A stretch of 64,000 nucleotides of DNA, taken from a virus. Within the stretch, counting starts at the first letter, position 1; the number at the start of each line of letters is the position of its first letter. Both the position numbers and the translations under genes were made by a program. The notes under the pieces are model-generated. The model searched no databases and had not been told where the DNA came from. It saw nothing but the letters and a program-made list of their open reading frames with translations. Below, one piece after another: positions 3,326 through 53,164 of the stretch. Location of the stretch: the IMG/VR virus record IMGVR_UViG_3300046673_000058, positions 1 through 64,000 of that record. One strand, given 5' to 3'.

Positions 3326-6300
3326 TCACCCCTTCGGCGGCGTTACTTTTATGTAATGCCACCCCGGTGTCGGCGTGCCTGCGTGGTTCAACGTAAGGAA
3401 CGGGAGTATGTCTATCGAACCACATTCCCCTGATAATGAGTTTACGGTGGTGCCGTCAATTTCTATGACATGCCCAGATGCGGATGTAGCACTACCTGTC
3501 GTTAGCCCCCCGGTCCCGGCGGCTTGGAACGGCTGCGAGTTAAGACTGAACTCAACAGAGTGCACCCGCGTAGTAGAAGGTCTAATTTCAAATTCAAACC
3601 ACGCGGGGTTGTTTGTGTCCGCTTGTGTAGTGAGTGTATAAGGAGTCGCAACGACCTGCCCCCCCTCATACTTAGGTTTGTCCTGTAAGTCACCCATTGT
3701 CTCCGCGAGCAACCGAGGCGTGTTCTTGTAAATGGCGTCTAATGTGAGTTGTATATCATGAGGGGTATCTAAGTTTGTTTTCTGTAATTTGGAAATCATA
3801 CATAACTCATTCACGCCGAGTTTCTCATCCATAACTAGAACATTCGTTCCTAACTTCAGCTCTTCAGACCAGTTAATAGTCGGATTAAGGTCATACAAAT
3901 CCACCACCCCAACCGACCACGATAAAATAGGCTGTGAAACTTTCGTTAAATACTGCGTTCCGGACTTTAATAACGCATCTTGCGATGTAGCCGTGTCATC
4001 TTTATACGTCCCCTCTATCATGCCGTATTTATCAATAGCATCCTGATTCGACAGCCACGGCGCGAGCGGATACGCAACGTAGTACTCATCGGTTGGGATG
4101 TAGTTTGAAGCAATGATTCCGATTGTCTTTTCATCAACGAAGAAGAACTGGTCGGTGACGTCGGTGTTGATTTCGTTGATAATCACATCAAGATTGTAAT
4201 ATCCGTGTTTATTTTCATATGTGCTCGTCTTCTCATACCTTCCTGCGGGGGCCCAGGCGTTATGTTTTATACCTGTTTGCGTGTCGGATTCATTATCGAA
4301 TCCTGGATTCGTTGTTGTGAAGTATCCCCCACACTCTAGTCCACCCAAATAGTTAGAGAACGCCACAGATGATGGATATAGGGATATGACTACCCAATAC
4401 GACCCTGTTGCCAACCACGCGCCTTGTAGTGGAAAGTTATACCATCTAAAGTTATCAGACGCAATCGAGAAGAAGTCCCCCACATACCAGAGCAACGGCC
4501 CTTGGTATGGCTCTAATACGCCCGTTTTATCTTGTTTAATAGAGTTATAAATCCCCACACAGAACTTTATCGCGCCGCCCGTTTCTTCTATCAGTCGTGT
4601 GTACTCAAGTAAGTCGCTTTGGTTCACCAACCCTTTTGTTTTTGATGGGTCTATGCGCCACAATAGGAGGGATATATCGGTTATCTGCGCCCCCCCTTGT
4701 GGGATGTTGAACATCTGCGCCGCCGCCTCATTACGTGTTCCGCCAGCACTAGCATAACCCCCTACAGTTGCTGGTAAATCCCATGGTGGGTCGCTTGTCC
4801 CTGCCTGAGCTGCTGCATCAGCACCGTGCGCCACAGGGTTCCAAGCGGTGTATGCCCCTAAATTCTTCCGACCACGCCCTATCAACATACCAGCACTTCG
4901 CGGAGATACCCCCATCTCAAAATTATTATAGGATACATACTCATTATCCGGTTCGACGCTGAAATACACGTACTGGTCAACAATCGTAGGGTTCTTCAGC
5001 CTGACCATCGGCTGGAAGTATGGTGGACTGTTAAGCGTTAGCTCCCCGGGCGCAGAGCCCGCCCCGCGCGGATACAATTTTGTTATTATCGAAGAATAAT
5101 CAGACTGAACATCCACACCTGTTGCGTTTTTACCAATAGTTATAATCGGCGGCTGGTCTGTATGGAACCCGCTCGGGTTGTAACTTCCGTATAGAATCCA
5201 CTGGTCAGAATTATAGTTATTCGAGAGTTGGTCTGCGCTTAGTGCGCTAGAGTGTTCACGGTACAGCGCAAGGGAGCAGTTTAGGTTATTCGTTTGGGCT
5301 TTGTTATTACCTAAGTAAATATTAAAGTCGCCATCAATCGTCCAGTCGCCCCACGTATTTCCATCGTCAGTTGATGTATTAGTATAAAGCTGCGTATTTT
5401 GGTTTATGTATGCGTCGAGTTCTAGAGTGGATGGCGCGATAATCGCAGGTTGTGCGTTCAGTGAGCCGCCTAAAGGTATATAATTATCCACAGGGGTCTG
5501 CATGCTCACGAGCGCGTAAGGGGTTGTATTATTAAACAAATATGTAAACCCACCACATTGCACACGGATATAATCAGCTTTAACGTCGACCCCTTCCAGT
5601 TCTCCACCGTGTGTGAATGCAGAGTAAGGGATTATCCTCGTTACGCCCGTCCCATCGGTATTCATCATAAAAACGCCGCCAGTTGGGTCCATGTTCCCCC
5701 ACCCGCAGTCGTAGGTGGCCGCCGTCGCGGTATAATAATGACCGCCATAAAAATCCATCCCCTCGGTGTACCACAAGGGGCTATCGGGATTTATCGTGGC
5801 AATATATGCGTTTGTGGTTAAGTCAAAGGTGAAGAGTTGGCACGGGCCTGCGCCTGTGCCAGGGGCTGCGAGGTCTATATCAACTATTGTATTATTTACG
5901 GTGTTCACCGTTACAGACCCACACGGTTCATGAGGCATAAAAGAACTTATTTGTGCTAAAGTAGACGTGTCCCATGTCGCTATCCATGCGTCCATCGTCT
6001 CAGCATTCACGCAGCACCCGTACAGTTTTCCGTCATACACCGCCCCGTCGCCCATGTGGTCCCCTCCACAGTCGGCGGCGGCGGTTAAGTTCGACGCGAC
6101 GACGTTTAGATTAGAGTCAAGCTTATAGATGGCTGTTGTAGTTATATAATAAAAATAGGCCCCATCCCACGCTAGACCCTGCTGCGAACCCTGCACGAAT
6201 CCGCCTTCAGTCGTTATTATCCATGCGGCCCCTGTGCTGTCGATTACACAAACAGCGATGTACCCATCAGAGGTAACGCACGCAGAGGGTGCAACATTGG

Positions 6301-9300
6301 ACGCGATGACCGAGCCCCCTACTGTGGCCCACGTGCTCCACGACGAGCCGTTCCATTCCATAGACCAGAGCGTGCCGTCACTTCCCTGCGCGAATATAGT
6401 AATATCGCCGTTGTCAGTAGCGACCGCCGTGGGTCCGCAGTAGATAGTAGCACCAGTAAGGTGAACCCAACCACTCCACGATGAGCCGCCGTTTGTGCTT
6501 GTTTTTTGGTAGAGTGACCCCGCCGTTCCACCTTCAACAAACACGTCAATTCTGCTTCCGTACGAACACGCGGTAAGCCCAGCATTCGGATAGAGCGTAC
6601 CACCTAAACTAACCCACCCACTCCAGCTCGTGCCGTTCCACTTATTGTAGTAACAGTATCCGTTACTCCCTCGCCCAAATAGGTGAATGGTATTAGCAGC
6701 CGGGGATGTTGCGGCTGGCGTCGTGGTGAGCGTTCCCCCTAAATTTTCAAGCCCCGTGCCGCCGTTTCCATCATCCCATGTATGAGAGACTGTGGCGTTC
6801 GCACCGACCATGAATATGTCCTTTCTCCCGGAACCCCACGAACACGCAGCAGGACCAGTTCCGTTCAACATCATCCATCCGTCGTTTGACCAACTTGACG
6901 CTGCGCTAGTGGATGTTTTACTTAACGTTTGTTGTGTGTTGTTTAGGTAAATCGAAGGAGCGACCGCAGGGCTACTAGGCCATACGATTTGAAGGTCATA
7001 CCACGTTCCTAATGCAATAGAATTAACAGGAGTGGTGTACGTTACCTGGTCACTATTCGCAGTGGTTCGTGAGGTGACAATACACTGATTATTTTCATCA
7101 ATCCACACTTCCCACGGTCCGAGCTGTTGTTGCTTTGACCAAAGCCTTCCGGCGGTACTTGTTTCGTTAAGGTTAAACAGGAACTCAAACGTAGTTGCAG
7201 ATGTGTTATCAATTGCCCCACCGTGCGGGGCTTCGATGTAATCAGTTGCACCGTTAAAGGCCCACATCCCCGCGCCAGAGGAGATGGGTTCATAGTCGGG
7301 CTGTTGTGCTGTCGCATTATACGCCGCACCCGCGTTTCCTTTGTTTATAATCGTTGTCCCGGTGGTCGGCCACGTGCTGTACTCAACCTCAGACGATTCG
7401 GAATTTACCCCTTCGCGCCATTTGTTCGCGGCGTATTCTGCTTTTAGTGCCACATCACCAAGGGCCGTACTGTGTAATGATAAAAAGGAGAGGGTCATTG
7501 CTGAATTATTGGCGAGCGTAACGTCGTTGCCGATGTATATATCCTCACCTAAGTCAGATGCCCATGCGCCTGTCCCAGTTTTGCTGTGTGTGATTGTCAA
7601 CTTTGTACCGTTTAGGTACATCACAGGCACGCCAATACCCGGGCCTAAAGAACCATCCCACGCGATTTGTATATAATTCCATTGCCCTATGTTAACCGTA
7701 CCAGTGGTGCTCATTATATACTGGTCCATCGTTCCAGAACCAGTGCCGGTCGTTGTGCGCTGAACTAATATTCTCGCTGAACTATCCACCCACGCGATTA
7801 CAAAGCCACCTTTGGAATAAATATAACTATAATTAGTCGCACCAGCGGCGTCTATCCTGAATATCGCCTGGAAAGTGAAGTTGTATAAATTCTCAAGTTC
7901 AGGTACGTCAGGGATTACAATATAATCGGTAGTATCCTGGAACTGCCACGCCGGTGCGCCGTTGTTAGTTAACTCATAGTACCCTGGGCTGCTCGCTACC
8001 CCGTCACCATCAGCACCCGCAACGCCCCCGTCGTTAGGTATTAACAGACCTTGGCTCGGGAAGTAATCATATATAACTTGCGCTGCGTTGGTGACGTTCA
8101 CTGGGTCGTATGAGTTCTGTATAGCGGCGAATGTACTAGCAAGGGTTAGTATGCGTTTTGAGGGGTCAGATGGAGGTATATAAACCCTACAATATCCACC
8201 AGTCTGTTGGATTATTTTATCTATGCCTGTTTTTATCGTTTCCCAGCTAAGGTCAACATCAAGCGGCATGTTAAGTGTGGGGTCAACGTAAATACCCGTT
8301 ATGAACCCGTCATTGAGTATTTCAGTACTAATATCTTGTAGTACCTGTAACGTCATACGCTGAGAGCTTTTATACTCAAAAGCGATGTTATACCGATTAA
8401 GATATTCTTCCGGCCCGTCTGCGGTGACTAATAGATTGTACCCACTCCCTGCTCCCAGAGTAGAGCCACCACTCCCCTGCACCCCACCAAAGTCGCCATA
8501 CGCTTCTACTTTTTGTAGTACAAACGCCTGCTTAAATTGGTTGTCTCTGCCGTACCACCATATCTCATACCCTTTCGGGTTTCCTGAGAGTGCCGGAACT
8601 AATGGAGAATCAATATTAAGGTTAAACGTGAGTAAATCAGCGTTCCCCAACTCCTGCTGAACCTGCGGGGCGATTCTACCATCTAGCACTCCGATATAAT
8701 TAAACGCCCTGTTAATGAGTTTAGCCCACTTACTCCAACCGGCAATTCCCACGCTCGCGGGGGTCCATTCCGTGTACCACAGGGCGCCGTCCTGGCCGCG
8801 TCCGAAAAGGGTTATCTCATTCTCGTTATTTGAAGCGGCGGCTAAGGTGCTTGTGACGGGACCGCCGATGTTTACCCACGCCCCGCTAGTAGTCCAATTA
8901 GAACTGGTATTCGTCTTCGTCCAGATTGAATTATCAGAGCCTACACAGTACAGGTCAACCCGTCCGGATGTCATGGACACCGCAGCAGGTCCGGTGCCTG
9001 GGTGTAGTGAGCCACCTAAACTATACCACGGGTGCCACGTGGTGTTATCAGCAGACCACCTGTACCAACAAGCCCCATCAGTGCCTCTTACAAATACACA
9101 AATTCCTGTTTCGTAATAACACGCTGCGGGTGATGAAGATGCCGCCCCGCCAAGTTGCTGCCATGATGACGGGCTAGTAATGGCGGGGACTCCTGGGGAC
9201 GCATGGGTATCAAGTAGTGTATAAGGGTAAGTTCCAGAGAACGTGTAAATATCCCCCCCCACTATGACGCTGATTCCGGCGTCAGTGGTGCATAGCCCTT

Positions 9301-12300
9301 CGACCTCCAACCCCGCAGTTGTTGCCCCTGTATCTGGATATGTGATTATTATTGACTCACTACTGCCGTTGGGGTTCATCACTCCAACCACCGCAGTCTC
9401 GCCCGCCACCCAGTTCTCATTTGTTGAGTAATAATATTTACCGTTGTAAGGGCATATCCCTTGGTAGTAGATTCCTGCAGGGCCATCGCCTGTGATTGAA
9501 CCTTCGTATGCGAACGTATCTAAGTTGAACTTGAACACCTTTGTGTGCCCTAGTGCAGTGCTTCCGGATGTGCCGTATTGTATCGCTACTAAACAGTTGT
9601 TCTCAGCATCTACACCAACACCGCCTATGTTAAGCACCTCATACGTGAGTCCAGATAATTCACATAAATCATAATTCGTTATAAAGCTCAGGTCGCTCGT
9701 GTTGAACAACCCCACCATCTCTTTTTGAGGGAGTTCTTGCGTAGTACAGAAACAGTAAAGAATGCCGTTATTTAATCCAGCCCCCCCTAAGTGGTCGCCA
9801 CCACATAGGGTCCCTACATTTTCCCTATACATGACTACGTTCATGCTCTGGTCTAACTTGTAAATAGACCACGTAGTAACGTAATAATAATACGTCCCGT
9901 CAAACGAAATGCTTTGTGGCTGCAAATATGCCGTTCCTGGTGTGCCCTTTAAGTGGAATAATGCGTTGCCTTTCCCGACGGCGAACACATTGATTTTCCC
10001 ATCCGCGTCCATACAAACAGAGGGCCCGGCATTCGCAGCAAGCGTCCCGCCAAGGGTCATCCATTCCCCCCACGTTTTACCCCCGTCGATTGAACCTTTG
10101 TAATAAACCGCCCGGGTTAGCCCTTGCGCAAAGACAAATATCTGGTTTTCCGCTGGGGAGACCGCAGAGACCGACGAGACAATCATTCCCTGTAAATCCA
10201 ACGCGCTTTCATACCCATCTGCGCTTGTGATGTACATTACCTCTCCGTCGACTTTGGAGGAAAAGAATACGTCATCCCTACCTGGTGCGCTCGAACACGC
10301 TGCTGGTGCTCCACCGTTCACGACCTGCCAGCCAGGGTTGCGTTGCCGGACTTCTAAAGTGTATGGAACAGTTATCGGCGGTTCTTGGGTGGGGACATAG
10401 ATTATGTTTATGTCGGATGTTTCGGTTATAATCAGCGTATCTGTTTCTGCTACATTAATACTAGATGAGAACTCTTCGAGCGAATGCCCTTCGATATTTC
10501 TTAGGTTTATCGTTTCGTGCGACGTAATCTTGGGAAACGAAGACGTTTCCCTAACAGAGAGGTTCATCACCTCGGAGTTAGTGAATCCGAACGTATTGGT
10601 CTCGCTAACCGATAGTGTCGCCGTCTCGTCAGAAAAGTAAGTAGGGAGTATTTGAGTTGTTCCAGCGTCAGAATCAGTTAATATAGCCGTTTCAGTCGAT
10701 GTGACATACTTACAGCCTACCTTCTGAATATATGAATTCTCAGTTACGATAAGTGTTATTATTTCAGGTGTTGTGACCTCACTTATGGTAGTTACCGATA
10801 CGTATGACTTTTCAGTAATCGAAAGCGTTATAACTTCATCCGTATTTACAACCCTGTCGCCGCCGCTTATTTGGGTACTGTTGCGCTCTTTGGGTTTGAG
10901 CGTTATCATTTCTTTCGACGTTTGATGAATCGTAAACGATGAAAATTCTGTAGGTGTGAGGGTGTTAGTATCTGGAGAAGATACATCTACTGTGCTCGTA
11001 GCCCATATCGCGCTATCGGCGGCGTAATTACTAGCAAAGTCACCGCTTGCATCGTAGTTGTACCACCTGAAAACCGCGATAGTTCCGTCTAAACCTCGGT
11101 TATTATTCCAGTAGCCGTCTATGTTCCCAACTATTAGCGAACCAACCGGACAGTCATCCATCCAGTCGCCGGTTCCCGTGTCAAAGTGGTATAACGTCTG
11201 TTGAGTGCCGTTGATGAATATTGCAATTCCATAATCATTCGGCCCTTCCATCGCGTCATAAGAAATTTGGATATCATACCAGTTTCCGATTGTAACGGGG
11301 GTTCCGCTTGTGTAATACGCGTCCCAGTTGCCGTCAGTGGTAAATCGTTGCAGTTGAAGCCTGTTGTTTGGAGTATCAACAAACAGACACCACTCACTAT
11401 TCGTATTAGTCGCGGAGTCTATAGCCCGCTTAGAAAATAACCTCGGTTGTGTGCTCGCTCCAGAGAACGTGCCGTTGAGGTAAAACGCTATCTCGGCGGA
11501 GTAATAATCTAAATCACAGGTCTTTGAACCGTTAGGAATCCAAATATAATCAGTATTACTTGTGAACTTCCACGCCTTATGTCCAGACGGCAGGGTTATC
11601 TGTTTATTTGAGCTAAAGTGACCGTTATAGCCACTGCCTGTATTCGACCCCGTGTTGGTGATGAGTCCACCAGAAACAGCCCAAGTAGAGAGGTCAACGC
11701 TTGCATTTGAGGGTCTATACGTAGAGTTCCAAGTACTCCCTCGGTATTTATCATAATACCAGTGCCCGTGGTTCGCAGATGCAAAAGAAGCGGATTGATT
11801 GGTGTTATACTGCCGGTAGACCATAAGCCAACCGGCTGCGTTATAACCGCGCGATGACGACGGGCACGCTGAGTTGGCAGAGTAGTTCATTATATTGGCG
11901 CTGCCAACCGAATCGTTGTACCACGCACCAGTCGGATATGAATTATCAGTACCCGCGTTAACCGTTTGCTCTACGGGTGTTGCACCGTCAGTACCTATCC
12001 ATATCCTCGGCTTTGGGGTGCTGGCTCCGTTCGGAGTTGCTCCTGCAGACCACGCGATTTGAATATAATACTCATGTCCTGTCGGTGTTGAACCCGATGG
12101 AGTGTAAAAGTAAATATCATGGCCGCTCGTGTCGTAACGGGATAATATAAGATTCTGGCTGCTGTCCTGGAAGTAAATCTCATACGCGCCGACGCCTTTG
12201 TCCCATATCTTGTTCATCCCGTGGCCGCCAGCGTGGTAACTGACGTATATCTCCCAACTAACGGTGTTTTGGTTGTTAGTCGTTGAGTTGGCGGGGATGC

Positions 12301-12463
12301 AGATAAAGTCGTTACTACCCGTCAAGCCCCAGTACGATGTGCCACTTGCGGAGAGTGTGTGGAAAAGAGACGGCGTGCTACAATATCCATTACATCCCGA
12401 AGCGGTGCCTTTATTCGTCCATGTCGTCACGCCTTCTGGAACGTAATAAATCGTCTGCGCCAT
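3326..12463 (-). CDS. Giant tail-tip hub (Tal-like) with LamG and propeller insertions
   Basis: 3045 residues. In order: two LamG-like units (about 1-490); a region of seven TLxxTE-type beta repeats (about 495-705); a PLL/DUF346-like beta-propeller (about 720-1245) interrupted by a different propeller carrying CGGDHLGG near 886; the first half of a phage hub (from FNYIGVLDGRIAP near 1253); a third LamG (about 1484-1690); a fourth LamG (about 1694-2421) split by a second PLL propeller, itself split by a second inner propeller with CGGDHMGD near 2131; the hub resumes (TKLYPRGAG, about 2441-2930), including the VDLYDL...LGTNVLVMDEKLG segment typical of Tal proteins; a beta domain closes the chain. 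It follows the tape measure and Dit genes, as a hub should. It probably combines tail-tip structure with glycan binding. Domain edges are estimates. Confidence 0.8.
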   Translation of the reverse strand: MAQTIYYVPEGVTTWTNKGTASGCNGYCSTPSLFHTLSASGTSYWGLTGSNDFICIPANSTTNNQNTVSWEIYVSYHAGGHGMNKIWDKGVGAYEIYFQDSSQNLILSRYDTSGHDIYFYTPSGSTPTGHEYYIQIAWSAGATPNGASTPKPRIWIGTDGATPVEQTVNAGTDNSYPTGAWYNDSVGSANIMNYSANSACPSSSRGYNAAGWLMVYRQYNTNQSASFASANHGHWYYDKYRGSTWNSTYRPSNASVDLSTWAVSGGLITNTGSNTGSGYNGHFSSNKQITLPSGHKAWKFTSNTDYIWIPNGSKTCDLDYYSAEIAFYLNGTFSGASTQPRLFSKRAIDSATNTNSEWCLFVDTPNNRLQLQRFTTDGNWDAYYTSGTPVTIGNWYDIQISYDAMEGPNDYGIAIFINGTQQTLYHFDTGTGDWMDDCPVGSLIVGNIDGYWNNNRGLDGTIAVFRWYNYDASGDFASNYAADSAIWATSTVDVSSPDTNTLTPTEFSSFTIHQTSKEMITLKPKERNSTQISGGDRVVNTDEVITLSITEKSYVSVTTISEVTTPEIITLIVTENSYIQKVGCKYVTSTETAILTDSDAGTTQILPTYFSDETATLSVSETNTFGFTNSEVMNLSVRETSSFPKITSHETINLRNIEGHSLEEFSSSINVAETDTLIITETSDINIIYVPTQEPPITVPYTLEVRQRNPGWQVVNGGAPAACSSAPGRDDVFFSSKVDGEVMYITSADGYESALDLQGMIVSSVSAVSPAENQIFVFAQGLTRAVYYKGSIDGGKTWGEWMTLGGTLAANAGPSVCMDADGKINVFAVGKGNALFHLKGTPGTAYLQPQSISFDGTYYYYVTTWSIYKLDQSMNVVMYRENVGTLCGGDHLGGAGLNNGILYCFCTTQELPQKEMVGLFNTSDLSFITNYDLCELSGLTYEVLNIGGVGVDAENNCLVAIQYGTSGSTALGHTKVFKFNLDTFAYEGSITGDGPAGIYYQGICPYNGKYYYSTNENWVAGETAVVGVMNPNGSSESIIITYPDTGATTAGLEVEGLCTTDAGISVIVGGDIYTFSGTYPYTLLDTHASPGVPAITSPSSWQQLGGAASSSPAACYYETGICVFVRGTDGACWYRWSADNTTWHPWYSLGGSLHPGTGPAAVSMTSGRVDLYCVGSDNSIWTKTNTSSNWTTSGAWVNIGGPVTSTLAAASNNENEITLFGRGQDGALWYTEWTPASVGIAGWSKWAKLINRAFNYIGVLDGRIAPQVQQELGNADLLTFNLNIDSPLVPALSGNPKGYEIWWYGRDNQFKQAFVLQKVEAYGDFGGVQGSGGSTLGAGSGYNLLVTADGPEEYLNRYNIAFEYKSSQRMTLQVLQDISTEILNDGFITGIYVDPTLNMPLDVDLSWETIKTGIDKIIQQTGGYCRVYIPPSDPSKRILTLASTFAAIQNSYDPVNVTNAAQVIYDYFPSQGLLIPNDGGVAGADGDGVASSPGYYELTNNGAPAWQFQDTTDYIVIPDVPELENLYNFTFQAIFRIDAAGATNYSYIYSKGGFVIAWVDSSARILVQRTTTGTGSGTMDQYIMSTTGTVNIGQWNYIQIAWDGSLGPGIGVPVMYLNGTKLTITHSKTGTGAWASDLGEDIYIGNDVTLANNSAMTLSFLSLHSTALGDVALKAEYAANKWREGVNSESSEVEYSTWPTTGTTIINKGNAGAAYNATAQQPDYEPISSGAGMWAFNGATDYIEAPHGGAIDNTSATTFEFLFNLNETSTAGRLWSKQQQLGPWEVWIDENNQCIVTSRTTANSDQVTYTTPVNSIALGTWYDLQIVWPSSPAVAPSIYLNNTQQTLSKTSTSAASSWSNDGWMMLNGTGPAACSWGSGRKDIFMVGANATVSHTWDDGNGGTGLENLGGTLTTTPAATSPAANTIHLFGRGSNGYCYYNKWNGTSWSGWVSLGGTLYPNAGLTACSYGSRIDVFVEGGTAGSLYQKTSTNGGSSWSGWVHLTGATIYCGPTAVATDNGDITIFAQGSDGTLWSMEWNGSSWSTWATVGGSVIASNVAPSACVTSDGYIAVCVIDSTGAAWIITTEGGFVQGSQQGLAWDGAYFYYITTTAIYKLDSNLNVVASNLTAAADCGGDHMGDGAVYDGKLYGCCVNAETMDAWIATWDTSTLAQISSFMPHEPCGSVTVNTVNNTIVDIDLAAPGTGAGPCQLFTFDLTTNAYIATINPDSPLWYTEGMDFYGGHYYTATAATYDCGWGNMDPTGGVFMMNTDGTGVTRIIPYSAFTHGGELEGVDVKADYIRVQCGGFTYLFNNTTPYALVSMQTPVDNYIPLGGSLNAQPAIIAPSTLELDAYINQNTQLYTNTSTDDGNTWGDWTIDGDFNIYLGNNKAQTNNLNCSLALYREHSSALSADQLSNNYNSDQWILYGSYNPSGFHTDQPPIITIGKNATGVDVQSDYSSIITKLYPRGAGSAPGELTLNSPPYFQPMVRLKNPTIVDQYVYFSVEPDNEYVSYNNFEMGVSPRSAGMLIGRGRKNLGAYTAWNPVAHGADAAAQAGTSDPPWDLPATVGGYASAGGTRNEAAAQMFNIPQGGAQITDISLLLWRIDPSKTKGLVNQSDLLEYTRLIEETGGAIKFCVGIYNSIKQDKTGVLEPYQGPLLWYVGDFFSIASDNFRWYNFPLQGAWLATGSYWVVISLYPSSVAFSNYLGGLECGGYFTTTNPGFDNESDTQTGIKHNAWAPAGRYEKTSTYENKHGYYNLDVIINEINTDVTDQFFFVDEKTIGIIASNYIPTDEYYVAYPLAPWLSNQDAIDKYGMIEGTYKDDTATSQDALLKSGTQYLTKVSQPILSWSVGVVDLYDLNPTINWSEELKLGTNVLVMDEKLGVNELCMISKLQKTNLDTPHDIQLTLDAIYKNTPRLLAETMGDLQDKPKYEGGQVVATPYTLTTQADTNNPAWFEFEIRPSTTRVHSVEFSLNSQPFQAAGTGGLTTGSATSASGHVIEIDGTTVNSLSGECGSIDILPFLTLNHAGTPTPGWHYIKVTPPKG

Positions 12464-12948
12464 TATCGAATCACCTTTACAACCGTCTTAACAGGGTTCG
12501 CGTTTACAATCGGAGGGTAATGTTGGTGGCACGTTATACCTTGCATATATCTATGTAACCACACATCTAATAACTTCCACTTAGGCACGGTAGACTTAGG
12601 ATATGGGTTATTTGAATCATCCCAAACGTCTGAATACTTTTCTATAAACTCACCACTAAACTTCGCAAGCGCGAGTGTCGGTGTAGTTCCGTCTTTAAAA
12701 GAATCCTCATTTGAAACTCCAAATGAACACCACCCCTCTGGACAGCGTTCTATCTCTTCAACCGCGCCAAACCAAAATACCGAATCATGCTCGCAATTAA
12801 GGAAGCTTTCTTTTTCTTCCCAGCGTTCCTTAAAATAGTCAAGATAGCTGTAGCTATCCGTTATCCAGACCGGCTCGTAGTCATAGTGCATAAGCACCAT
12901 TTTAGTTGCCGGTTGTATGGTAGTATAAGGAACGAAAAGCTTAGACAC
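12463..12948 (-). CDS. Uncharacterised tail-region protein
   Basis: 161 residues, rich in Trp, Tyr and acidic residues, with several Cys (CEHD, CPEGWC). No family recognised. It lies between a small tail protein and the giant hub gene, sharing one base with the hub start. That position suggests a baseplate, chaperone or fibre-assembly role, but nothing in the sequence shows it. Confidence 0.6.
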   Translation of the reverse strand: MSKLFVPYTTIQPATKMVLMHYDYEPVWITDSYSYLDYFKERWEEKESFLNCEHDSVFWFGAVEEIERCPEGWCSFGVSNEDSFKDGTTPTLALAKFSGEFIEKYSDVWDDSNNPYPKSTVPKWKLLDVWLHRYMQGITCHQHYPPIVNANPVKTVVKVIR

Positions 12949-14432: not shown

Positions 14433-16784
14433 TTAACCTCGCGCGTGTCCGCTTCTACGGGAGTACGATTCGGTCTTAAACGCCAATTTCCGCGAGATAA
14501 GGTCAGCTAGGTTTTCAACGTCCTGTGGGTTGTTCATCTGCGGGTTATTGATTTGAATTGCTCCGGGGTGTACGTGAATATCCCCACCGGCAGTGTTTGT
14601 TGTCGCGCTCGCGCTCGTTAACGCTCCAGCTCCTGCCGCCGCGCTTATACCCCCTCGAATACCACTCAGCGGTACAACGAGTTCTGGACCTGCTTCACCT
14701 ATGAGTGCTACCGTAGGCTTGGTGACGAGGCCGCCACCTGCCATCGCAGGAAGCTTAGCACTTGTGATTGAACCTACCGCATTACTAACCGCAGAGGTTA
14801 ATCCGCTAAAGAATCCGGCAGCCGCTGAGAGCATCCAGTCCCCTAACCCGCCAATCGCACCCTGTATACCCCCTGGGAGCCCGCTAAAGAACCCCTCCGC
14901 CGCGCCGAGTAGCCACGTTCCAAAGCTGACAAGCGCAGTTGTAATACCATTCCACAGCTCCCCGGGAATGGGAGAAAGTAAGTTCCAGAGCCACGTTCCT
15001 ATCTGCACCCATATGCCAACATATGCAGTCCATAATTGCATAGGAAGTGGCGAGATAAGACCCCACAGCCAGGTTCCTATTTGAATCCATATACCTATAT
15101 ACGCGGTCCATAGTTTCATCGGAAGTGTGGTGATTAAACCCCAGAGCCACGTTCCTATCTGCACCCATATGCCAACATATGCAGTCCATAATTGCATAGG
15201 AAGTGGCGAGATAAGACCCCACAGCCACGTGCCAAACTGTCCAAGCGCGCTCACTAAGGCGCTCCATGCTTTCGCTGCCATGCCACCCCAGTTGAAGCTC
15301 GTGATAGCAGAAAACCCCGCTAAGATGCCTTTTTTGAAGTCATCACCTAACTTGCCGAAGTTACCACTCATCAGGTCGCCTAAGAGTGTTTTAATCCATC
15401 CGGCTACTTCGTTGACCGCATCGTGGAATGGCTTGAAATATGTGTAAAGTAGGTAGAGGGCAATGCCGATTGCGGCGACTGCAATGATGATTGGGAGTAG
15501 TGGGATAAGTATTGCCAAAACCGCAGGGAGAACCGTTGTCATTAACGCAACCCCGATGGCAGATACAATAGGCGCGATAACTCCGAACCCTGTTGCAAGT
15601 GGACCTATTATCATCAAGATAGGCCCAATAGCTGCGAGTATTCCTAAAATAGCAACAACAACCATTTGAACCGGCGCGGGCATGTTTGAGAAGACCCCCA
15701 TGACGCTAGTAAGAATGTCCAAAATTGGTTTTGCCGCGTCGAGAACATTTTCCAGTACATTTATAAGCACCTTACCAAACGGCGCAAAAGCGACTTCGGC
15801 CTTGTTCTTAAACTCATCAAGCTTTTCGCTAAGGGTCATGGTGGCTTCTGACTGCTTCTCAATAGAGCCCGCAGAACTATCTTGAGCGGCCTTCAGTTGA
15901 TTATAACCAGTCGTCGTGTTCCCAAGCGACGCGCTTAACTTATCATAGTTCTTCTGTCCTAGGAGCGTCTTGTCGGAGGCCGTTGCAGTTCCCGTAGCAA
16001 TGCGCTGCATCATCGCGTTCCACTCATTGCCGACATCTTGTTTTCCAAGTTGGGTTTGCAGCTTTGTCACACCGTCAGTGAGAAGGGCGTTTCCCTGTCG
16101 TGCGGGAATACCCGATGCCGCGAGAGACCCTATCGCCGCCGAGTAGTCATCCATAGGAATCTTAGCTGAATATGCTACGGAACCCGCCTTCGCTAACGTA
16201 CCCGTCAGGTCATTGATTGGTGCTCCGGTCTTTGTGGAAATAACATACAGCTTATCCATCTCATTACCAGCTTCAGAAGCAGGCATGTGGAACGCATTCA
16301 TGGCGGTTGATAACCCAGTTACGGCGCCTGTAGCATCAACGCCAAGCATACGGGACATATCTAATCCTTGTTTGGTAACATTTTCAAGAGCGGGGCCCGC
16401 AATATGCAGTTTATCGCTTACTACCGCCATCACGTTTGCTACGGTGGTCGCATCGTCAGGAGTGTTGCCGAAAACGTTAGTAAAAGAAGTTTTCATCTGG
16501 GTGGCGGCTGCGCCTGTTGAATTAGTTTGGCGTATTAAGCTTGTTTCAGCGGTGTTGATGGTCTCAAAGCTTTTAACGGCGAATAATGCCCCGGCGACTA
16601 TGGGTGCGGTGATACCTGCGGTCATAATGCCACCAGCCCCCTTCATTGACCCCGCTATGTCATTGCCGAAGTTTGAGAATAAGCCCTGCCCTTTACTTAA
16701 TGCGCTTGTTATGTCGCTAATAAACCCACTAGTATCAGACTTTAAGTTTACAATTGCAGTCCCAACAACGTCGCCGCCACCCAT
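14433..16784 (-). CDS. Tail tape measure protein
   Basis: 783 residues. Helical and Ala/Gly-rich N-terminal half (GAGGIMTAGITAPIVAGALF is typical of TMP N termini), then hydrophobic segments around 370-450, then Trp-rich tandem repeats (around 520-630) and a Gly-rich C terminus containing GLVTKPTVALIGEAGPELVV, a motif common at TMP ends. It lies between chaperone-like genes and Dit. At about 1.5 angstrom per residue the length implies a tail near 115-120 nm, a rule-of-thumb estimate. Confidence 0.9.
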   Translation of the reverse strand: MGGGDVVGTAIVNLKSDTSGFISDITSALSKGQGLFSNFGNDIAGSMKGAGGIMTAGITAPIVAGALFAVKSFETINTAETSLIRQTNSTGAAATQMKTSFTNVFGNTPDDATTVANVMAVVSDKLHIAGPALENVTKQGLDMSRMLGVDATGAVTGLSTAMNAFHMPASEAGNEMDKLYVISTKTGAPINDLTGTLAKAGSVAYSAKIPMDDYSAAIGSLAASGIPARQGNALLTDGVTKLQTQLGKQDVGNEWNAMMQRIATGTATASDKTLLGQKNYDKLSASLGNTTTGYNQLKAAQDSSAGSIEKQSEATMTLSEKLDEFKNKAEVAFAPFGKVLINVLENVLDAAKPILDILTSVMGVFSNMPAPVQMVVVAILGILAAIGPILMIIGPLATGFGVIAPIVSAIGVALMTTVLPAVLAILIPLLPIIIAVAAIGIALYLLYTYFKPFHDAVNEVAGWIKTLLGDLMSGNFGKLGDDFKKGILAGFSAITSFNWGGMAAKAWSALVSALGQFGTWLWGLISPLPMQLWTAYVGIWVQIGTWLWGLITTLPMKLWTAYIGIWIQIGTWLWGLISPLPMQLWTAYVGIWVQIGTWLWNLLSPIPGELWNGITTALVSFGTWLLGAAEGFFSGLPGGIQGAIGGLGDWMLSAAAGFFSGLTSAVSNAVGSITSAKLPAMAGGGLVTKPTVALIGEAGPELVVPLSGIRGGISAAAGAGALTSASATTNTAGGDIHVHPGAIQINNPQMNNPQDVENLADLISRKLAFKTESYSRRSGHARG
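14985..15226 (-). repeat. Tandem 26-codon repeats in tape measure gene
   Basis: The encoded unit WGLISPLPMQLWTAYVGIW plus VQIGTWL repeats three times with a degenerate fourth (WNLLSPIPGELW). Units one and three are identical at DNA level over about 86 bases (14985-15070 and 15141-15226, offset 156), while the middle unit has diverged. This suggests a recent duplication or gene conversion that changes the repeat count. Confidence 0.85.
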
Positions 16785-33382: not shown

Positions 33383-34009
33383 TTAACTATTACGTAATTG
33401 TAGGTACTCTTCGTGCGTCTTTGTGCCCTTTTGTAGGTTACATCGTGCACAGCTTATGGCTATATTTGAGATATCATTCTTGCCGCCACGCGATATTGGG
33501 GTCTTGTGCTCAATATGAACTTCCTTATCGAATGAGGCGTAAAGCAGTTCACCACAATAGAAACAGAATCCTTCTTGCTGCTCAAATAACTCGTTTAGTT
33601 CTTTGAAAGTGAATGTGCCGCCATTATTCTTTTTGCGTGCGCGGTGATTGTTATTGTTTATCCGTCGCTTTTCGGGGTTATCCCTGCGCCATCTGCGCGA
33701 TTTTTCTCGGTTGTATTCTCTGCGGGTCTTTCTGTATTCGCGCTCATATTCTGGGTGCTCTTCCCGCCACGTAATATCATAGTCGTGTTTTTTATCGTGG
33801 TTATTTACACACCATTCGCGTTTGGCTTCGAGACATTGTTCACACGTTTTATAATGAGGGGAGCTCACAGGTTTACCACAGCTAGAGCACACCCCGTCAT
33901 GAAACGTATCTCTACGTCTTTGCATCCATTCGCGAGCGCGTTTGCGGCAAGACGCACACCTCTTATAGCGGTCTTCTTCAACCTCACGACTACAATGGGT
34001 GCACTTCAT
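33383..34009 (-). CDS. Free-standing HNH endonuclease 1
   Basis: 208 residues. Two Cys-pair zinc motifs lie at the N terminus (CTHC...CASC, CSSCG...CEQC), followed by a basic spacer and an HNH core: GFCFYCGELL, IEHKTPISRGGKND and CARCNLQKGTKT. The core is nearly the same as in the gene at 61782-62282, so both derive from one mobile ancestor. It interrupts the otherwise dense head gene order, as homing endonucleases do. Confidence 0.85.
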   Translation of the reverse strand: MKCTHCSREVEEDRYKRCASCRKRAREWMQRRRDTFHDGVCSSCGKPVSSPHYKTCEQCLEAKREWCVNNHDKKHDYDITWREEHPEYEREYRKTRREYNREKSRRWRRDNPEKRRINNNNHRARKKNNGGTFTFKELNELFEQQEGFCFYCGELLYASFDKEVHIEHKTPISRGGKNDISNIAISCARCNLQKGTKTHEEYLQLRNS

Positions 34010-35643: not shown

Positions 35644-35726
35644 CGCTTGACCTTAGGATACGCGCGTCGTGATGGCACTATCCTCTTTGAATACCACTTA
35701 CGGTAAGCAGTTCTTAGAATACTCAT
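35640..35726 (-). CDS. 28-residue basic peptide
   Basis: ATG 35726 overlaps the portal stop and its own TGA overlaps the next ATG, so it is coupled on both sides by ATGA. The product (MSILRTAYRKWYSKRIVPSR then RAYPKVKR) has about ten Arg/Lys and no acidic residues. The precise fit between two genes argues that it is translated. It could bind DNA or act as a head-assembly peptide. Confidence 0.6.
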   Translation of the reverse strand: MSILRTAYRKWYSKRIVPSRRAYPKVKR

Positions 35727-38521
35727 CGCTTTGCCTTCTTCTTCTTGCCGCCAAGTGGTGCGTTAACGTGAACATCCCCCGCACTCGGCTGCCCCGACTT
35801 AGCCTGCGACCCATACTCACTCGTCGCCGGTGTCTCCACGTTTAACCTTTGTTGGCGTTCAGTAGTATCCGCCGCCGTTTGCCCCGGAAGCATTGCGTCC
35901 GCCGCTGTCTGTTGCGGTGGCGCGGCCGTCTGTCCCGGAAGTAATGAATCAGCCGGTGGTTTTACCTCTGCGTCCTCGGGTTCAGGCTCTGTGGGGAGGT
36001 GTAAGATGTTCCAAATCTTGTTTCTAAAGTCCACAGTGTCTGGAATTGTGACACCCCCGCGTGCAAGTAGGGATATTGCATTTGCTATGTCAAGTCCCGC
36101 ACTTGAGGCGATATCTCCGTGGGTGAGTTTTGGTAGTGACTGGGGGTTTATGTTGGCGTTGAGCCTCGCTAATCTCGGTACCGCATACGAGTTAATCGTC
36201 TCTGCTATCGAATCGAGTATTGCGGTTATTGATAGACTAAAGATGTCGTTCCGCGTTTCCGCTAAGGCGTATGAGCCGGTTTGGTCCTGCCCCAACATCA
36301 GGAAATCCGCGAGAACAGTCATCGCTATCATCTTGTTGTATCTGTTGATTATATCCCCCGTCATGAACTGCCGCTGGCTCGAGGGGCCTAAGAGTTGAAT
36401 GTCGTACATTAACCCAGGGCCGCCGTCTTCGGGTGGGTAAAGTGTGGAGGGGAGGATTATGCCCTCGTCCTGGTTCCTGTGGATGTTGGTGATGACTTGT
36501 TTATAATAATCGCGGGCGCTAACAGCGTCCGCGTCTGAACCGAGCAGGACATTCTCAGGTACTCTCATAATAGGAATGCCTGCGAGGTCACGCTCAACGC
36601 CGATGGCTTCGATGTCTTCGATATTTTTCTTCAAATACCACGAACGGTACGCACCACGAAGCATACTGACGCCTTCTGGGTTCCCTTTGCGTGGTTTAAC
36701 CCTGAAGAGTAGGGATTTCTCCATCGGTATCTCAGTTATGCGGTAGTGTGGTGGGGCCAATTGAACCATGGCCACGACGCCGCCGTTAACGTCGAAGTCC
36801 CACCTAAGCAAACTTTCTTGGGTTCTGATGGCCCATTTTCTCCACCCTATGCGGCCGTCGTCGAAGTTGCTGTCGAGGGTTGGGTCGTCAGGGTGCGGCC
36901 CCTCGCGCTTTTTATAAACTTGCTCAAGCCAGCAGTTAGAAACAATTATTGGCCCCGCACAGAACGTGTGGTCTTCCTCTACTTCTAAGTCATAGACCGG
37001 CCCTTCATAATACACACGTTTAATCGAAACTATCTTATGTCCTAATGCTTCGTCATAAACTTTAACTTGAAGACCCTGCTGCTTTGCTCCACCGTTGGTT
37101 TCAGATTTCTCCGAGAGCCACCGCCACGCGGTGACGTAAGATACACCACATTCTTTAGCAACTTCGTGTAGTGTTTTTCCGTCTTCCCTAAGCTTCCGCG
37201 CTTTACCTTCTAATTCTGAGCGTTTCCAATCTGTTATTCTTGCAGGAAGCGCACCTACCTTGTACGCCACACCATCAAAACGTATGGGTGATGGTAATCC
37301 GAGTGCACCCGCGATTAGTTGCATTTGCTGCGCTAGTGACTTGCTTACTGTTGTTACTGCGCTTATTGTGAACCCTTTGGACTGGGATACAAAACCATCA
37401 CCCCATAACCAACCGTCAAATAGGCCACACGCAAATTCTTTTTCTTCGGGCAATTTTGAGAGCCGCTTATCGTGCGCATTATCACCCAACACCCACGAAT
37501 CAATAAGCTCTCGGAAACGCGGGTGTGAGATAGTAACCCGCCCTGAATTTGGCCTATCTTTACCTATAACTGGATACCGCCCCGCTTTCAAAGAACTAAG
37601 GTGGTGGTGTTTCTCAGCACCTTCACGTTCCATCCATTCGTCTATCTGGTTAGCAAGTTCTTCAACTTCTTTTGTGTGAACGTCAAACATAACGCGGGTT
37701 CTATCTGGTGCTCTACTCCCTTCTGCTACATACGCACCAACTAGCCACCCGGATAAGTAGTCGCCACCTTCTTTGAGTTTAGGGCGCGGACGTAATACGA
37801 TGTCCCCGGTGTTCAGCTCACCTGCGGTTTTCCATCCGTCCTTTGTTGGGAGTTGGTGCTCAGGCGTCATCTGTATCGGATGTGGGTACCCAAGTATCTT
37901 TAGTTCCACCAAATCGCCAGTGTATTCGCGGGTGTAAATTTTTGTTACTGCGCGTGCGCGGCCATGCTTAGTGAGAACTAAATCACCTAGTTTGACGTCC
38001 TGTATCTTGATAGGAACGCCTGTACCGTTTAGAATCATTTGATTAGTAGGTATGCACCAACCAAATATAAACATACTGAGTATTTCAGCTAACGTGTCTT
38101 CCCAGTTGACACTCATATCTTCAAACAAACACTGGCTAAAGAACTCTGCGGCCTGTTCGTCTTCCGGTGAATCGCCACCGGGTTCAAACGACCAATCTAC
38201 CGAGCGACATACCATTTCAACGGCGTAAAAGATTGACGAGATAATGGCATCATTGGTTGCCATTTCCTTATAAATCTTGACGCCTTTTTGCTGTTGGAGC
38301 TCTGGTAACCACTCTTCCCAGATGTACGGGCCCAAACGGAATAATCCGGTCGTGCCGTATTCCTGGAAGTAATTAATATTACTGGGCCGCGTGATTGAGG
38401 CCCCTTGTGAATCAAGCGTGGGGAAATCTGCAGGACTCAACCCGCCGCCACCAGACGTAACAGGCTGCTTGGAGATACGTTCAGCATCTTCTTTTGTTAT
38501 CTTCTTTTTTCTTGGCGGCAT
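35723..38521 (-). CDS. Portal protein interrupted by an intein
   Basis: 932 residues from ATG 38521 (AAAAGG upstream; a TTG at 38554 would add 11 residues). The N extein (LFRLGPYIWEEWLPELQ, KIYKEMATNDAIISSIF, EILSMFIFGW) and C extein (CWLEQVYKKREG, MSREITEIPMEKS-like region, PENVLLGSDADAV, DFLMLGQDQTGSYALAE) together match a DUF935/Mu-type portal of about 558 residues. The intein sits after FGW, within a conserved portal segment. The C terminus is Pro/Gln/Ala-rich. It forms the DNA entry ring and lies between terminase and head genes. Confidence 0.85.
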   Translation of the reverse strand: MPPRKKKITKEDAERISKQPVTSGGGGLSPADFPTLDSQGASITRPSNINYFQEYGTTGLFRLGPYIWEEWLPELQQQKGVKIYKEMATNDAIISSIFYAVEMVCRSVDWSFEPGGDSPEDEQAAEFFSQCLFEDMSVNWEDTLAEILSMFIFGWCIPTNQMILNGTGVPIKIQDVKLGDLVLTKHGRARAVTKIYTREYTGDLVELKILGYPHPIQMTPEHQLPTKDGWKTAGELNTGDIVLRPRPKLKEGGDYLSGWLVGAYVAEGSRAPDRTRVMFDVHTKEVEELANQIDEWMEREGAEKHHHLSSLKAGRYPVIGKDRPNSGRVTISHPRFRELIDSWVLGDNAHDKRLSKLPEEKEFACGLFDGWLWGDGFVSQSKGFTISAVTTVSKSLAQQMQLIAGALGLPSPIRFDGVAYKVGALPARITDWKRSELEGKARKLREDGKTLHEVAKECGVSYVTAWRWLSEKSETNGGAKQQGLQVKVYDEALGHKIVSIKRVYYEGPVYDLEVEEDHTFCAGPIIVSNCWLEQVYKKREGPHPDDPTLDSNFDDGRIGWRKWAIRTQESLLRWDFDVNGGVVAMVQLAPPHYRITEIPMEKSLLFRVKPRKGNPEGVSMLRGAYRSWYLKKNIEDIEAIGVERDLAGIPIMRVPENVLLGSDADAVSARDYYKQVITNIHRNQDEGIILPSTLYPPEDGGPGLMYDIQLLGPSSQRQFMTGDIINRYNKMIAMTVLADFLMLGQDQTGSYALAETRNDIFSLSITAILDSIAETINSYAVPRLARLNANINPQSLPKLTHGDIASSAGLDIANAISLLARGGVTIPDTVDFRNKIWNILHLPTEPEPEDAEVKPPADSLLPGQTAAPPQQTAADAMLPGQTAADTTERQQRLNVETPATSEYGSQAKSGQPSAGDVHVNAPLGGKKKKAKR
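36935..38056 (-). other. 374-residue intein with LAGLIDADG endonuclease
   Basis: It begins at Cys (CIPTNQMILNGTG) and ends at Asn before extein Cys (CAGPIIVSN/C). A splicing B block GYPHPIQMTPEHQLPT is present. Two LAGLIDADG-like blocks, LSGWLVGAYVAEGS and ACGLFDGWLWGDGF, mark a homing endonuclease. A helix-turn-helix-like piece (LHEVAKECGVSYVTAWRWL) lies between endonuclease and C-terminal splicing blocks. The usual penultimate His is Ser here, a variant known to be tolerated in some inteins. Confidence 0.85.
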
Positions 38522-38552
38522 TTTGTTAAAACCTTTTGAACCTTTCGAATGC

Positions 38553-38582
38553 AATCATCATTTAATCATCAGCTAATCATCA
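38553..38582. repeat. Three helically phased 8-base iterons
   Basis: AATCATCA occurs at 38553, 38564 and 38575, exactly 11 bases apart, with a weaker AATAATCA at 38584. One-turn spacing suggests repeated binding of one protein to one DNA face. The site lies just upstream of the portal start and downstream of terminase, a possible operator or packaging-related site. Confidence 0.5.
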
Positions 38583-41165: not shown

Positions 41166-42059
41166 TTATTGTAGTATGCTAGGCGTTGAAGCAAACTGCA
41201 CTGACGCTGGCGGCGGAGTTACGAAATCCGACTCTGTAATGATTGCCCATGCGTCGCCTGACTCGTACGAAACATTATCAAAGAACGAGTACGGCATCCA
41301 CCACAGCCCGTTCGCACCCCATCCAGTACCCCAACTGTTCTTAGCAAACAACGCGCCTTTTGAACCGTCGTAATTGCCTACATGGTTGTCGTCATAGCCG
41401 ATGAACACATTCGCGTGCCCTCCTGCGATTCCGCCGCTAGGTGTGGGCATGTTGCCGTCACTACCTGTGTTAAAGAAGGAATTTGGCACGTCAAAGCCGA
41501 ACATGACGGGGTAACACGGGGGGAGAACGGCGTTAGGCGCGATGGCTGCCTTTATGTTGGCGAGTGTAATTGATTGGTCATTGGCGTCGAGTCGTGTTGC
41601 TTTGGTGGTTTTGTCCTTTGCTGCGTCGTTGAGGACTTTTGTTGGGACGGGTGTGCCGAGTTGCGCGGTGTATGGGAACTCGGTTTCTGGTGCTACGCCT
41701 TTGTTTTCTAGTACCCATGCCATTGTTGAAAGACTACTGCCGACGTCCTGCGTTGGCGGTGACGATTGCCCGTCGTGGACGAGCGCACATTGGTACAACT
41801 GCATCCTAGAACCGTTGAAGTATGTTCCTATAGCTGTGTAACTTCTTATCTTAGAACAATTGTCACCAGCGTTGGCCGTACACGAACCCATGCTCATCTG
41901 GTCCTCAACAGGAGTCCCATCTTTTATTATATAACTAGCCGGTAGTGTTTCAATCTGTTCGCGGCTTAACAATAGTTTAGCGTCTTTATGCGCAGGGTCG
42001 CGCAGGCATCCCATATAGTATTTTCTTTCGTTCGTTTCATGATATACTTTATTTCCCAT
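41166..42059 (-). CDS. Second papain-like (C1A) cysteine protease
   Basis: 297 residues. Active-site elements: Gln54 and Cys60 in DQMSMGSCTANA, His215 in AGGHANVFIGYDD, Asn241 in AKNSWGTGWG. This DQxxxGSCTANA form is common in prokaryotic and viral C1A peptidases. There is no signal peptide and no EYQPKT tail, unlike the protease at 1394. Two tiny membrane peptides follow at once, so export through a membrane lesion to attack the S-layer at lysis is a reasonable hypothesis. Confidence 0.85.
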   Translation of the reverse strand: MGNKVYHETNERKYYMGCLRDPAHKDAKLLLSREQIETLPASYIIKDGTPVEDQMSMGSCTANAGDNCSKIRSYTAIGTYFNGSRMQLYQCALVHDGQSSPPTQDVGSSLSTMAWVLENKGVAPETEFPYTAQLGTPVPTKVLNDAAKDKTTKATRLDANDQSITLANIKAAIAPNAVLPPCYPVMFGFDVPNSFFNTGSDGNMPTPSGGIAGGHANVFIGYDDNHVGNYDGSKGALFAKNSWGTGWGANGLWWMPYSFFDNVSYESGDAWAIITESDFVTPPPASVQFASTPSILQ

Positions 42060-47130: not shown

Positions 47131-47150
47131 CCGCTAGCTTTCGCAAGCGG
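47131..47150 (-). ncRNA. GNRA hairpin at TnpB 3' end
   Basis: CCGCT-T-GC-GAAA-GC-T-AGCGG: a 7-pair stem with one mismatch and a GAAA tetraloop, spanning the TnpB stop codon. IS200/IS605 elements carry such a subterminal hairpin at the right end, and TnpB guide RNA comes from this region. The guide RNA's real extent cannot be set by eye. Confidence 0.5.
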
Positions 47151-48258
47151 CTTCTATGGTTTTGACACCAACAGACGTTAGCCCGCGTCTGAGTATGTTG
47201 ATTGCGGCATTTTCGTCACGGTCTGCGACGTATCCGCAGTCACACGAATGTTTGCGGTCTTTTAGTTCCTTCTTGACTATCTGACCACATCTCGAACATT
47301 CCTGAGTTGTATTGTTAGGGTTCACCAACACCACAATAGAACCAGCTTCCTCCGCTTTGTTCTGTGTTGCGTTGATGAATTGTGTCCACGCTGCATCACC
47401 TATTGACTTGGCGAGATACCTATTCTGAACCATCCCTTTTACGTTCAGGTCTTCAAAGGCAACGATACCGAATCGGTTAACGATTGCGCGGCTTAGTTGA
47501 TGCACGAAGTCGTTACGTCTACTTCCTATCCGTTCGTGTATTCTCGACACGACCTTACGGGCTTTCGCTCTTTTAGGTGTTCCCTTCTCTTGCGCCGATA
47601 GTTTACGCTGTGCTTTCGCTAATGCTTTCTCGTCGTGTCTAAAGAATCGAGGGTTCTCTACCTTCTCACCGTTTGATAGGGTGGCAAATGATGTTAGTCC
47701 TACGTCGATACCCACAACCGCGCCGTCTTTGAACGGTTGTGTCTTTGGTTCATATTCCGTCGTGAAACACGCAAACCATTTTCCTGATGAACGGCGATTG
47801 ATGTTTAGCCGTTTGACTGTGCCTTCTATTGCTCTGTGAAGTTTGATTTTAACGTCACCTATCTTTGAGAGTTTCAACGTCGTTTCTTTTAACGAGAATC
47901 CCAACTGTGGGTAGGTGAACGAATCGTAACGCCCTTTACCTTTGAAACGTGGGTAGCCAACTTCTTTTTCTCCGGCTTTTACCCTTCTAAAGAACGCTTT
48001 GAATGCTAAATCGACACGCTGTTGGGTTTCCTGCAACACTTGAGAATGAACCGTTTTCAGCTCAAGATGTTGCGCTTTCCACGACGGCAACAAGTTATGC
48101 GTGTCATAGTTAGAAATGGATTTTTGTTCTTGTTCCCACGCGTCTTTACGTATCGCTAACGTTTGATTGTAGACAAACCGACACAGTTCTAGCGTCTGAT
48201 TCATTATCGTTTCCTGTGCTTTTGTCGGATAGAGTCGATAGCGATACACTTTATGCAT
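47134..48258 (-). mobile_element. tnpB: Solo TnpB (IS200/IS605 OrfB) RNA-guided nuclease
   Basis: 374 residues with an intact RuvC set: Asp185 (GIDVGLTS), Glu269 (VAFEDLNVKGM) and Asp348 (DRDENAA), plus the four-Cys zinc finger CSRCG...CDCG (321-341). N-terminal YRYRLYPTKAQE is typical. No TnpA transposase is near, so the element is non-autonomous or domesticated. It sits between small genes of the early operon without evident gene disruption. Confidence 0.9.
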
Positions 48259-53027: not shown

Positions 53028-53164
53028 TTCTTCTTGTCCCAAAACGTACATATTTTGGGATAAAGCACTGTGTCATCAAGCAGGTGAAACCCCCGGGCAG
53101 AGCAGTAGTATCCAGTACCTGATGTGCCTGCGTGTTGGCAACTCGCACAGGGTTCTAAAATCAT
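53024..53164 (-). CDS. 46-residue Cys-rich protein
   Basis: MILEPCASCQHAGTSGTGYY: Cys6, Cys9, His11, Cys21 and Cys39 give a probable zinc site. ATGA overlap with the upstream lectin-like gene. Function unknown. Confidence 0.6.
   Translation of the reverse strand: MILEPCASCQHAGTSGTGYYCSARGFHLLDDTVLYPKICTFWDKKK

Follow-up and report, generated by a model that had tools for sequence, protein, structure and literature searches.

We describe a viral tail hub protein in which, on the predicted folds, domains are nested at three levels of insertion: a five-bladed propeller within a six-bladed PLL-like propeller, within a LamG domain, within the hub. The protein is encoded in the window, the 64,000-nucleotide stretch of DNA analysed here, which is part of a 72,781-base IMG/VR virus record. 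We propose, with a probability of roughly 80%, that it is a modular device for adhesion, built by putting closed domains with neighbouring ends repeatedly, and one within another, into surface hairpins and into one inter-domain junction. The original prediction, made from the sequence of the window, had suggested the nesting, the resumption of the hub beyond it and a modular receptor-binding system, and these are retained here. Its further suggestions, that the same blade was used twice, that a whole cassette was duplicated and that one cassette lies before the hub, are not.

The hub and its domains

A single reading frame is open over 3045 codons (ORF 3326-12463, minus strand; Table 1). Its residues 2441-2913 match the Prophage_tail family PF06605 (E=1.5e-14, profile positions 93-241) with a score of 54.7 bits, above the Pfam curated cut-off of 31.3, and hub homology thus picks up again at 2441 as had been predicted; residues 2802-2997 match PHROG tail families. 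As in siphovirus-like tails, the tape measure gene is followed by that of the Dit-like protein, by two small ORFs and by the hub. This order recurs in the related loci L008 and L010-L014, with the Dit fused into a larger ORF in L010-L014. The match of the Dit-like protein to SPP1_Dit (PF22768, E=1.9e-4) is under the curated cut-off, and the protein is 34-52% identical to the Dit regions of relatives. The ORF product is probably a Tal hub of the gp27/PF06605 type, at the tail tip of a tailed, siphovirus-like virus. Searches of genome contigs and phage records with the hub gave no match, and terminase and capsid show distant similarity to many phages and nothing closer.

Table 1. Features of the hub ORF and of the neighbouring tail genes, in window positions.
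Feature	Residues	Positions	Strand	Basis
Tal-like tail hub ORF with nested insertions	3045 residues	3326..12463	-	ORF list, translation, PF06605, PHROG
N-terminal LamG/concanavalin-like domain pair	1-490	10994..12463	-	BLAST similarity to LamG1, L006 and L008 LamGs
E/T-rich repeat linker	491-704	10352..10993	-	37% to L008
Outer PLL propeller A, blades 1 to 3 (strand C)	711-841	9941..10333	-	L008 PLL-A 1-134
Inner five-bladed propeller A	846-1088	9200..9928	-	AF2 model, Foldseek
Outer PLL propeller A, blade 3 strand D and blades 4-6	1096-1252	8708..9178	-	PLL matches, L008 tiling
Hub domain D1, remainder	1253-1459	8087..8707	-	identity to seven relatives
LamG1	1460-1686	7406..8086	-	PF13385 E=4.9e-9
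LamG2, N-terminal part	1691-1862	6878..7393	-	maps onto intact LamGs
Outer PLL propeller B, blades 1 to 5 (strand C)	1863-2083	6215..6877	-	PLL2, L008, model
Inner five-bladed propeller B	2089-2322	5498..6199	-	model; 37% to inner A
Outer PLL propeller B, blade 5 strand D and blade 6	2327-2378	5330..5485	-	model; L008 PLL-B
LamG2, C-terminal part	2379-2424	5192..5329	-	contiguous with N part on intact LamGs
Hub domain D2	2432-2525	4889..5170	-	PF06605 from 2441; alignment with four relatives
Jelly-roll-like insert between D2 and D3	~2526-2760	4184..4888	-	in L006, L011, L012, L013
Hub domain D3	2790-2930	3674..4096	-	PF06605 to 2913; 44% to L006
Dit-like distal tail protein, unfused	269 aa	13618..14427	-	SPP1_Dit PF22768
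Tape measure		14433-16784		PF10145

Some other genes of the window are worth recording. The portal gene (35723-38554, minus strand; Portal_Mu E=3.7e-29) contains an in-frame intein at residues 197-540 (Intein_splicing E=1.4e-11) with LAGLIDADG and HTH sub-matches. The ORF at 53161-54369 (minus strand) has a glycosidase-like N part and apparently three PLL blades at its C terminus, which is half of a six-bladed ring, so the product may close by dimerising. Two papain-like (C1) peptidase ORFs (1394-2428 and 41166-42059, minus strand) are 29% identical to each other, and relatives of these lie near the hub in L011, L012 and L013. There are also a TnpB/OrfB-IS605 gene (47134-48258, minus strand) and two HNH endonuclease ORFs (33383-34009 and 61782-62282, both minus strand).

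The relatives of the D1 half are seven IMG/VR loci, which together with the window hub make eight virus contigs. D1 is 38-69% identical to its counterparts in all seven (46% to L006), and the D2-D3 half is 28-35% identical to relatives in the alignment with four of them, and 32-44% identical in the comparison with L006. With regard to the N-terminal part of the profile (PF06605 1-92), D1 is without a Pfam match, yet it is contiguous with D2-D3 in a 797-residue protein of L011, and we therefore assign it to the hub. D1 has no match in the PDB either; a profile search there brought up antibody light chains, a chance result that apparently arises via a short Gly/Ser-rich motif. A further stretch (about 2526-2790), which is common to the relatives aligned and is probably a jelly-roll fold, also splits the hub between D2 and D3.

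D1 and D2-D3 are encoded apart in L006, L012 and L013, by two genes that overlap by 4 bases (GTGA or ATGA). The split at the D1/D2 junction falls at 11851-11854 in L006, at 10636-10639 in L012 and L013, and near 10639 in L014, a contig that stops just past the same D1 ending. A linker, a chain break, LamG domains or a propeller can thus be found at this junction, which evidently tolerates each.

Two interrupted propellers

The first cassette (A) had been predicted to precede the hub. As far as the sequences indicate, it instead interrupts the first beta-hairpin of D1. The last residues of the E/T-rich linker form D1 strand 1 (YTLEVR at 701), and the corresponding motif, Y-x-[FL]-E-[VL]-[RH], lies 15-24 residues ahead of the rest of D1 in L006 and L010-L014. 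This distance is 297 residues in L008 and about 556 in the window hub, where D1 restarts at about 1257. The first three blades of outer propeller A (residues 711-841) are 43% identical to positions 1-134 of the intact L008 propeller PLL-A, and matches to PLL lectins cover residues 1095-1246. Inner propeller A, modelled alone from a shallow alignment of 5 sequences, was predicted by AF2 to be a closed five-bladed propeller of 20 strands (pLDDT 85.8, pTM 0.87).

The second cassette (B) lies within LamG2. The motifs quoted in the prediction are all present (SWSNDG at 1857, DFNIYLGNN at 2379, CGGDHLGG at 887 and CGGDHMGD at 2132), and LamG2 is broken after the first of these and restarts with the second: its halves, 1691-1862 and 2379-2424, map 2-5 residues apart on intact LamG domains. 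The C half consists of just 46 residues. It nevertheless reaches z-scores of 8.6-10 over shuffles against LamG domains of the window, L006 ORF2 and L008, with a weaker or absent signal against three other LamGs, and L006 ORF2 holds the LamG2 counterpart uninterrupted.

A model of residues 1690-2445, built on a likewise shallow alignment of 13 sequences, has a mean pLDDT of 77, with the propellers mostly at 80-95. The C-terminal strands of LamG2 are at about 35-45 in this model, so for the C-terminal LamG2 junction we rely on the sequence. The outer propeller is modelled with six four-stranded blades. After strand C of blade 5 (2080-2084) the chain departs into a run of 20 strands (2096-2322), before it comes back to form strand D (2329-2332). 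The model thus contains two propellers, with the inner one inserted in the C-D hairpin of blade 5 of the outer, and a continuous single propeller was not seen. Outer propeller B has a PLL2 match at 1895-2055 and is 44% identical to PLL-B of L008; its last part corresponds to model strands 640-675 and to PLL-B 232-281. In both outer propellers, as judged from sequence in A and from sequence and model in B, one blade carries a five-bladed propeller in its C-D hairpin, and the predicted nesting of propeller in propeller in LamG in hub is supported.

The outer propellers had been called PLL/DUF346-type, and Photorhabdus PLL lectins do match both of them (phmmer E 3.7e-46 to 5.9e-26; Foldseek E about 1e-14). 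Both model and sequence give six four-stranded blades, and not seven as in the PLL family, so we describe them as PLL-like and not as canonical PLL lectins. Outer A and outer B are about 36% identical.

Empty sites and the history of the cassettes

Relatives with cassette-free hubs had also been anticipated, and they were found in L010 and L011. In L011 the entire hub is the 797-residue protein mentioned above, without LamG domain or propeller (PF06605 48.1 bits). L008, a separate contig, repeats the arrangement of a PLL propeller in LamG2 and another in D1. It has orthologues of both outer propellers, neither with an inner one: the flanks in the window tile PLL-A at 1-134 and 136-281, and PLL-B at 4-225 and 232-281. 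Going by sequence comparison, the relatives supply an empty site for each level, i.e. a hub without LamG, a LamG without PLL propeller and a PLL propeller without inner.

The inner domain is also present in L006, within a PLL blade. A homologue (33% identity, E about 1e-18) lies in L010 and L011 in the N-terminal fibre beta-domain of the Dit fusion. The flanks of this site, 2-373 and 613-648, are contiguous (380|385) in L012 and L013, and likewise in L014; the empty site in these three loci holds a few residues. As the inner domain occurs in PLL blades (window A, window B and L006) and in the fibre domain, the same domain fills loops of unrelated domains.

Further variation was seen around these sites. 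The Dit fusions are 1500-1890 residues long (L010:4376-9934, L011:4388-9934, L012:5030-9574 and L014:4281-9938) and combine Dit with fibre, Ig-like and glycosidase-like domains, in a different order in L014; Dit is unfused in the window and in L008. L008 has a second LamG2 insert (11432-12586), a 385-residue glycosidase-like plus Ig-like block, which recurs in the L010-L014 Dit fusions and, in L010 and L011, carries a small insert. A charged loop bearing CPKC-like cysteines (DCPKCPKAVRKEAAERKEAA) occurs in blade 6 of the L006 outer propeller (ORF 4682-11854, at about residues 2085-2120); it may be a small metal-binding element inserted at the same position in the C-D loop.

Cassettes A and B align with each other as outer-inner-outer (E=5e-48, 29% identity over 492 aligned positions), and they had been explained by duplication of a whole two-propeller cassette, with insertion at the same blade. 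The same intra-blade loop is used, but in different blades. Comparisons of blade register between A and PLL-A, B and PLL-B, and PLL-A and PLL-B are each best at register 0, and by this route through L008 the inner propeller lies in blade 3 in A and in blade 5 in B. L008 has both outer propellers without inners; the outer pair therefore predates the split of L008 and the window hub from their common ancestor, and gain or loss of the inner propeller was not tied to the outer. These observations, together with the closer match of inner A to its L006 counterpart (56% identity) than to inner B (37%), suggest that the outer pair and the inner domain are separate in history.

A single duplication of the complete PLL-plus-inner unit, after which the L008 lineage lost both inners and the insertion blade shifted, strikes us as improbable. 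The A-B identities of outer and inner are indeed alike (about 36% and 37%), and the direct alignment passes through the inner propeller in one piece. The duplication requires A-B register 2, however, and the direct register scores are ambiguous, with register 2 (298) below register 4 (362) and register 0 at 280; the different blades, the two L008 outers without inners and the closer kinship of inner A with L006 also argue against it.

On the reading of separate histories, the five-bladed domain would move between sites and proteins as its own unit, by recombination, and not in a fixed cassette. We give about even odds to the idea that it is a mobile domain, which has been inserted, or swapped in and out, at hairpin loops in two or more unrelated beta folds, with clean empty sites left behind; the contexts counted are PLL blades in three places and the Dit-fused fibre domain, all in one virus group. 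If true, the domain would amount to a general-purpose graft for loops, of natural origin, with which receptor-binding heads can be stacked one inside another while the hub stays undisturbed.

That the nested order itself is an artefact of assembly or reading (a chimeric contig or a frameshift), or a product of degenerate sequence, merits hardly any credence: all the sequences do come from metagenomic virus contigs and the L006 hub is spread over two ORFs, but the window frame is open throughout, L008, a separate contig, has the same PLL-in-LamG and PLL-in-D1 order, further copies of the inner propeller occur in L006 and L010/L011, the predicted folds of the parts are confident, and the hub splits of L006, L012 and L013 are clean 4-nt overlaps.

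Possible function and known systems

As an adhesion device, the protein might work as follows. Surface hairpins and one inter-domain junction of the hub would have gained modules of carbohydrate-binding type by in-frame insertion, the first hairpin of D1 taking a six-bladed PLL-like propeller, the D1/D2 junction two LamG domains and the second LamG another PLL-like propeller. The hub and the host blades could still fold because ring closure should set the N and C termini of a propeller side by side. A closed propeller would then hang from the peripheral C-D hairpin while the host fold stays closed. Sugars of the host surface may be bound at the PLL sites between blades, and a second ligand, of the host-surface glycan type, in the cavity of the five-bladed head, judging from the likeness of this head in fold to a protein of phage phi11. 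Several weak sites per chain, multiplied by the copies of the hub, would result in avidity.

The inner propeller could instead be an enzyme, e.g. a polysaccharide lyase or a depolymerase. We think this unlikely, though it is the strongest of the alternatives. The nearest solved fold of inner A is glutaminyl cyclotransferase 2iwa (Foldseek E=1.3e-8, TM 0.58), a match at the level of fold only (13% identity). H52 and E214/E216 are invariant, within conserved motifs, in all five inner copies, and a profile search of PDB sequences gave a weak match to the rhamnose-glucuronate lyase 7esk (E=0.0014). A cyclotransferase-like five-bladed propeller, however, is also what the putative GlcNAc-binding head of phi11 has (PMC4901313), and this host-recognition protein (5efv_A) is among the Foldseek matches of inner A (E=2.5e-6). 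The inner domain resembles solved propellers moderately (TM-scores 0.4-0.58), and unrelated propellers are numerous among its matches. In the profile search against PDB sequences, phi11 did not come up; in view of this we do not file the inner domain as a phi11-type receptor-binding propeller, although it may work alike. Searches for the inner domain in genome contigs, phage records and Pfam gave no match; PHROG matches were at chance level and one to a plasmid was chance-like.

A purely structural role of the propellers, as spacers or stabilisers within the hub with no part in receptor binding, is in our judgement also rather improbable. Such a role would agree with the Ig-like domains among the modules inserted in relatives. 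The outer propellers match a lectin family, however (E to 3.7e-46), insertion differs among relatives, as adhesion parts should, and comparable Dit insertions bind host saccharides (PMC7291167).

Several elements of the proposed adhesion device are already known, namely single tail-tip insertions, PLL lectins, phage propellers and an integrin domain in a propeller. DDB1-type proteins are a further parallel, as they have several propellers per chain and an interrupted sequence order, but they have no mobile lectin modules and no viral hub. To our knowledge, no empty-site intermediates are known for them. A threefold nesting in which a propeller blade contains another propeller, together with relatives lacking each layer, was not met in a limited literature search: a search for nested propellers or propeller-in-propeller gave no protein example (mostly without subscription papers, and thus weak evidence for novelty).

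One close parallel is with the evolved Dit and Tal proteins of Gram-positive siphophages, in which carbohydrate-binding modules are inserted in a loop, in some relatives only (PMC7291167, PMC9692632). In the window hub, too, a module sits in a Tal loop and is missing in relatives, and we infer that the same logic has been extended here to nested insertion. The receptor-binding role of the evolved proteins would be shared by the window hub. The evolved proteins are described with one insertion layer (a module in a galectin loop), whereas the window hub is three levels deep, with propellers, and uses a hairpin and an inter-domain junction as insertion places.

The outer propellers resemble the Photorhabdus PLL/PHL lectins (DUF346-type) in sequence, fold and four-stranded W-motif blades (PMC6943638). 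The blades of PLL3 differ from one another most evidently in a C-D loop (PMC6943638). These lectins have seven blades, whereas the outer propellers have six, are embedded in a viral hub and are broken by a propeller in the C-D loop. A five-bladed propeller is also part of Gp45 (5efv), the receptor-binding protein with which phage phi11 recognises its host; this propeller best matched glutamine cyclotransferase in structure, and its cavity was proposed to hold GlcNAc (PMC4901313). No sequence similarity to it was found, however, and the Gp45 propeller is one of a series of consecutive domains, in a separate trimeric protein, and does not lie within another propeller. In integrins with an alpha-I domain, a ligand-binding domain lies inside the beta-propeller of the alpha subunit, so that binding was added while the ancestral propeller still folds (PMC12422189). 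This animal example has a single level, and its insert is a vWA domain that joins blade 2 to blade 3, not a propeller in a blade (PMC12422189).

Phage receptor-binding diversity is usually ascribed to C-terminal domain swaps or single loop insertions. With three nested levels and natural empty-site relatives, it becomes testable how a hub gains binding heads while it continues to fold, and the five-bladed propeller offers natural with/without pairs for studies of tolerance to domain insertion.
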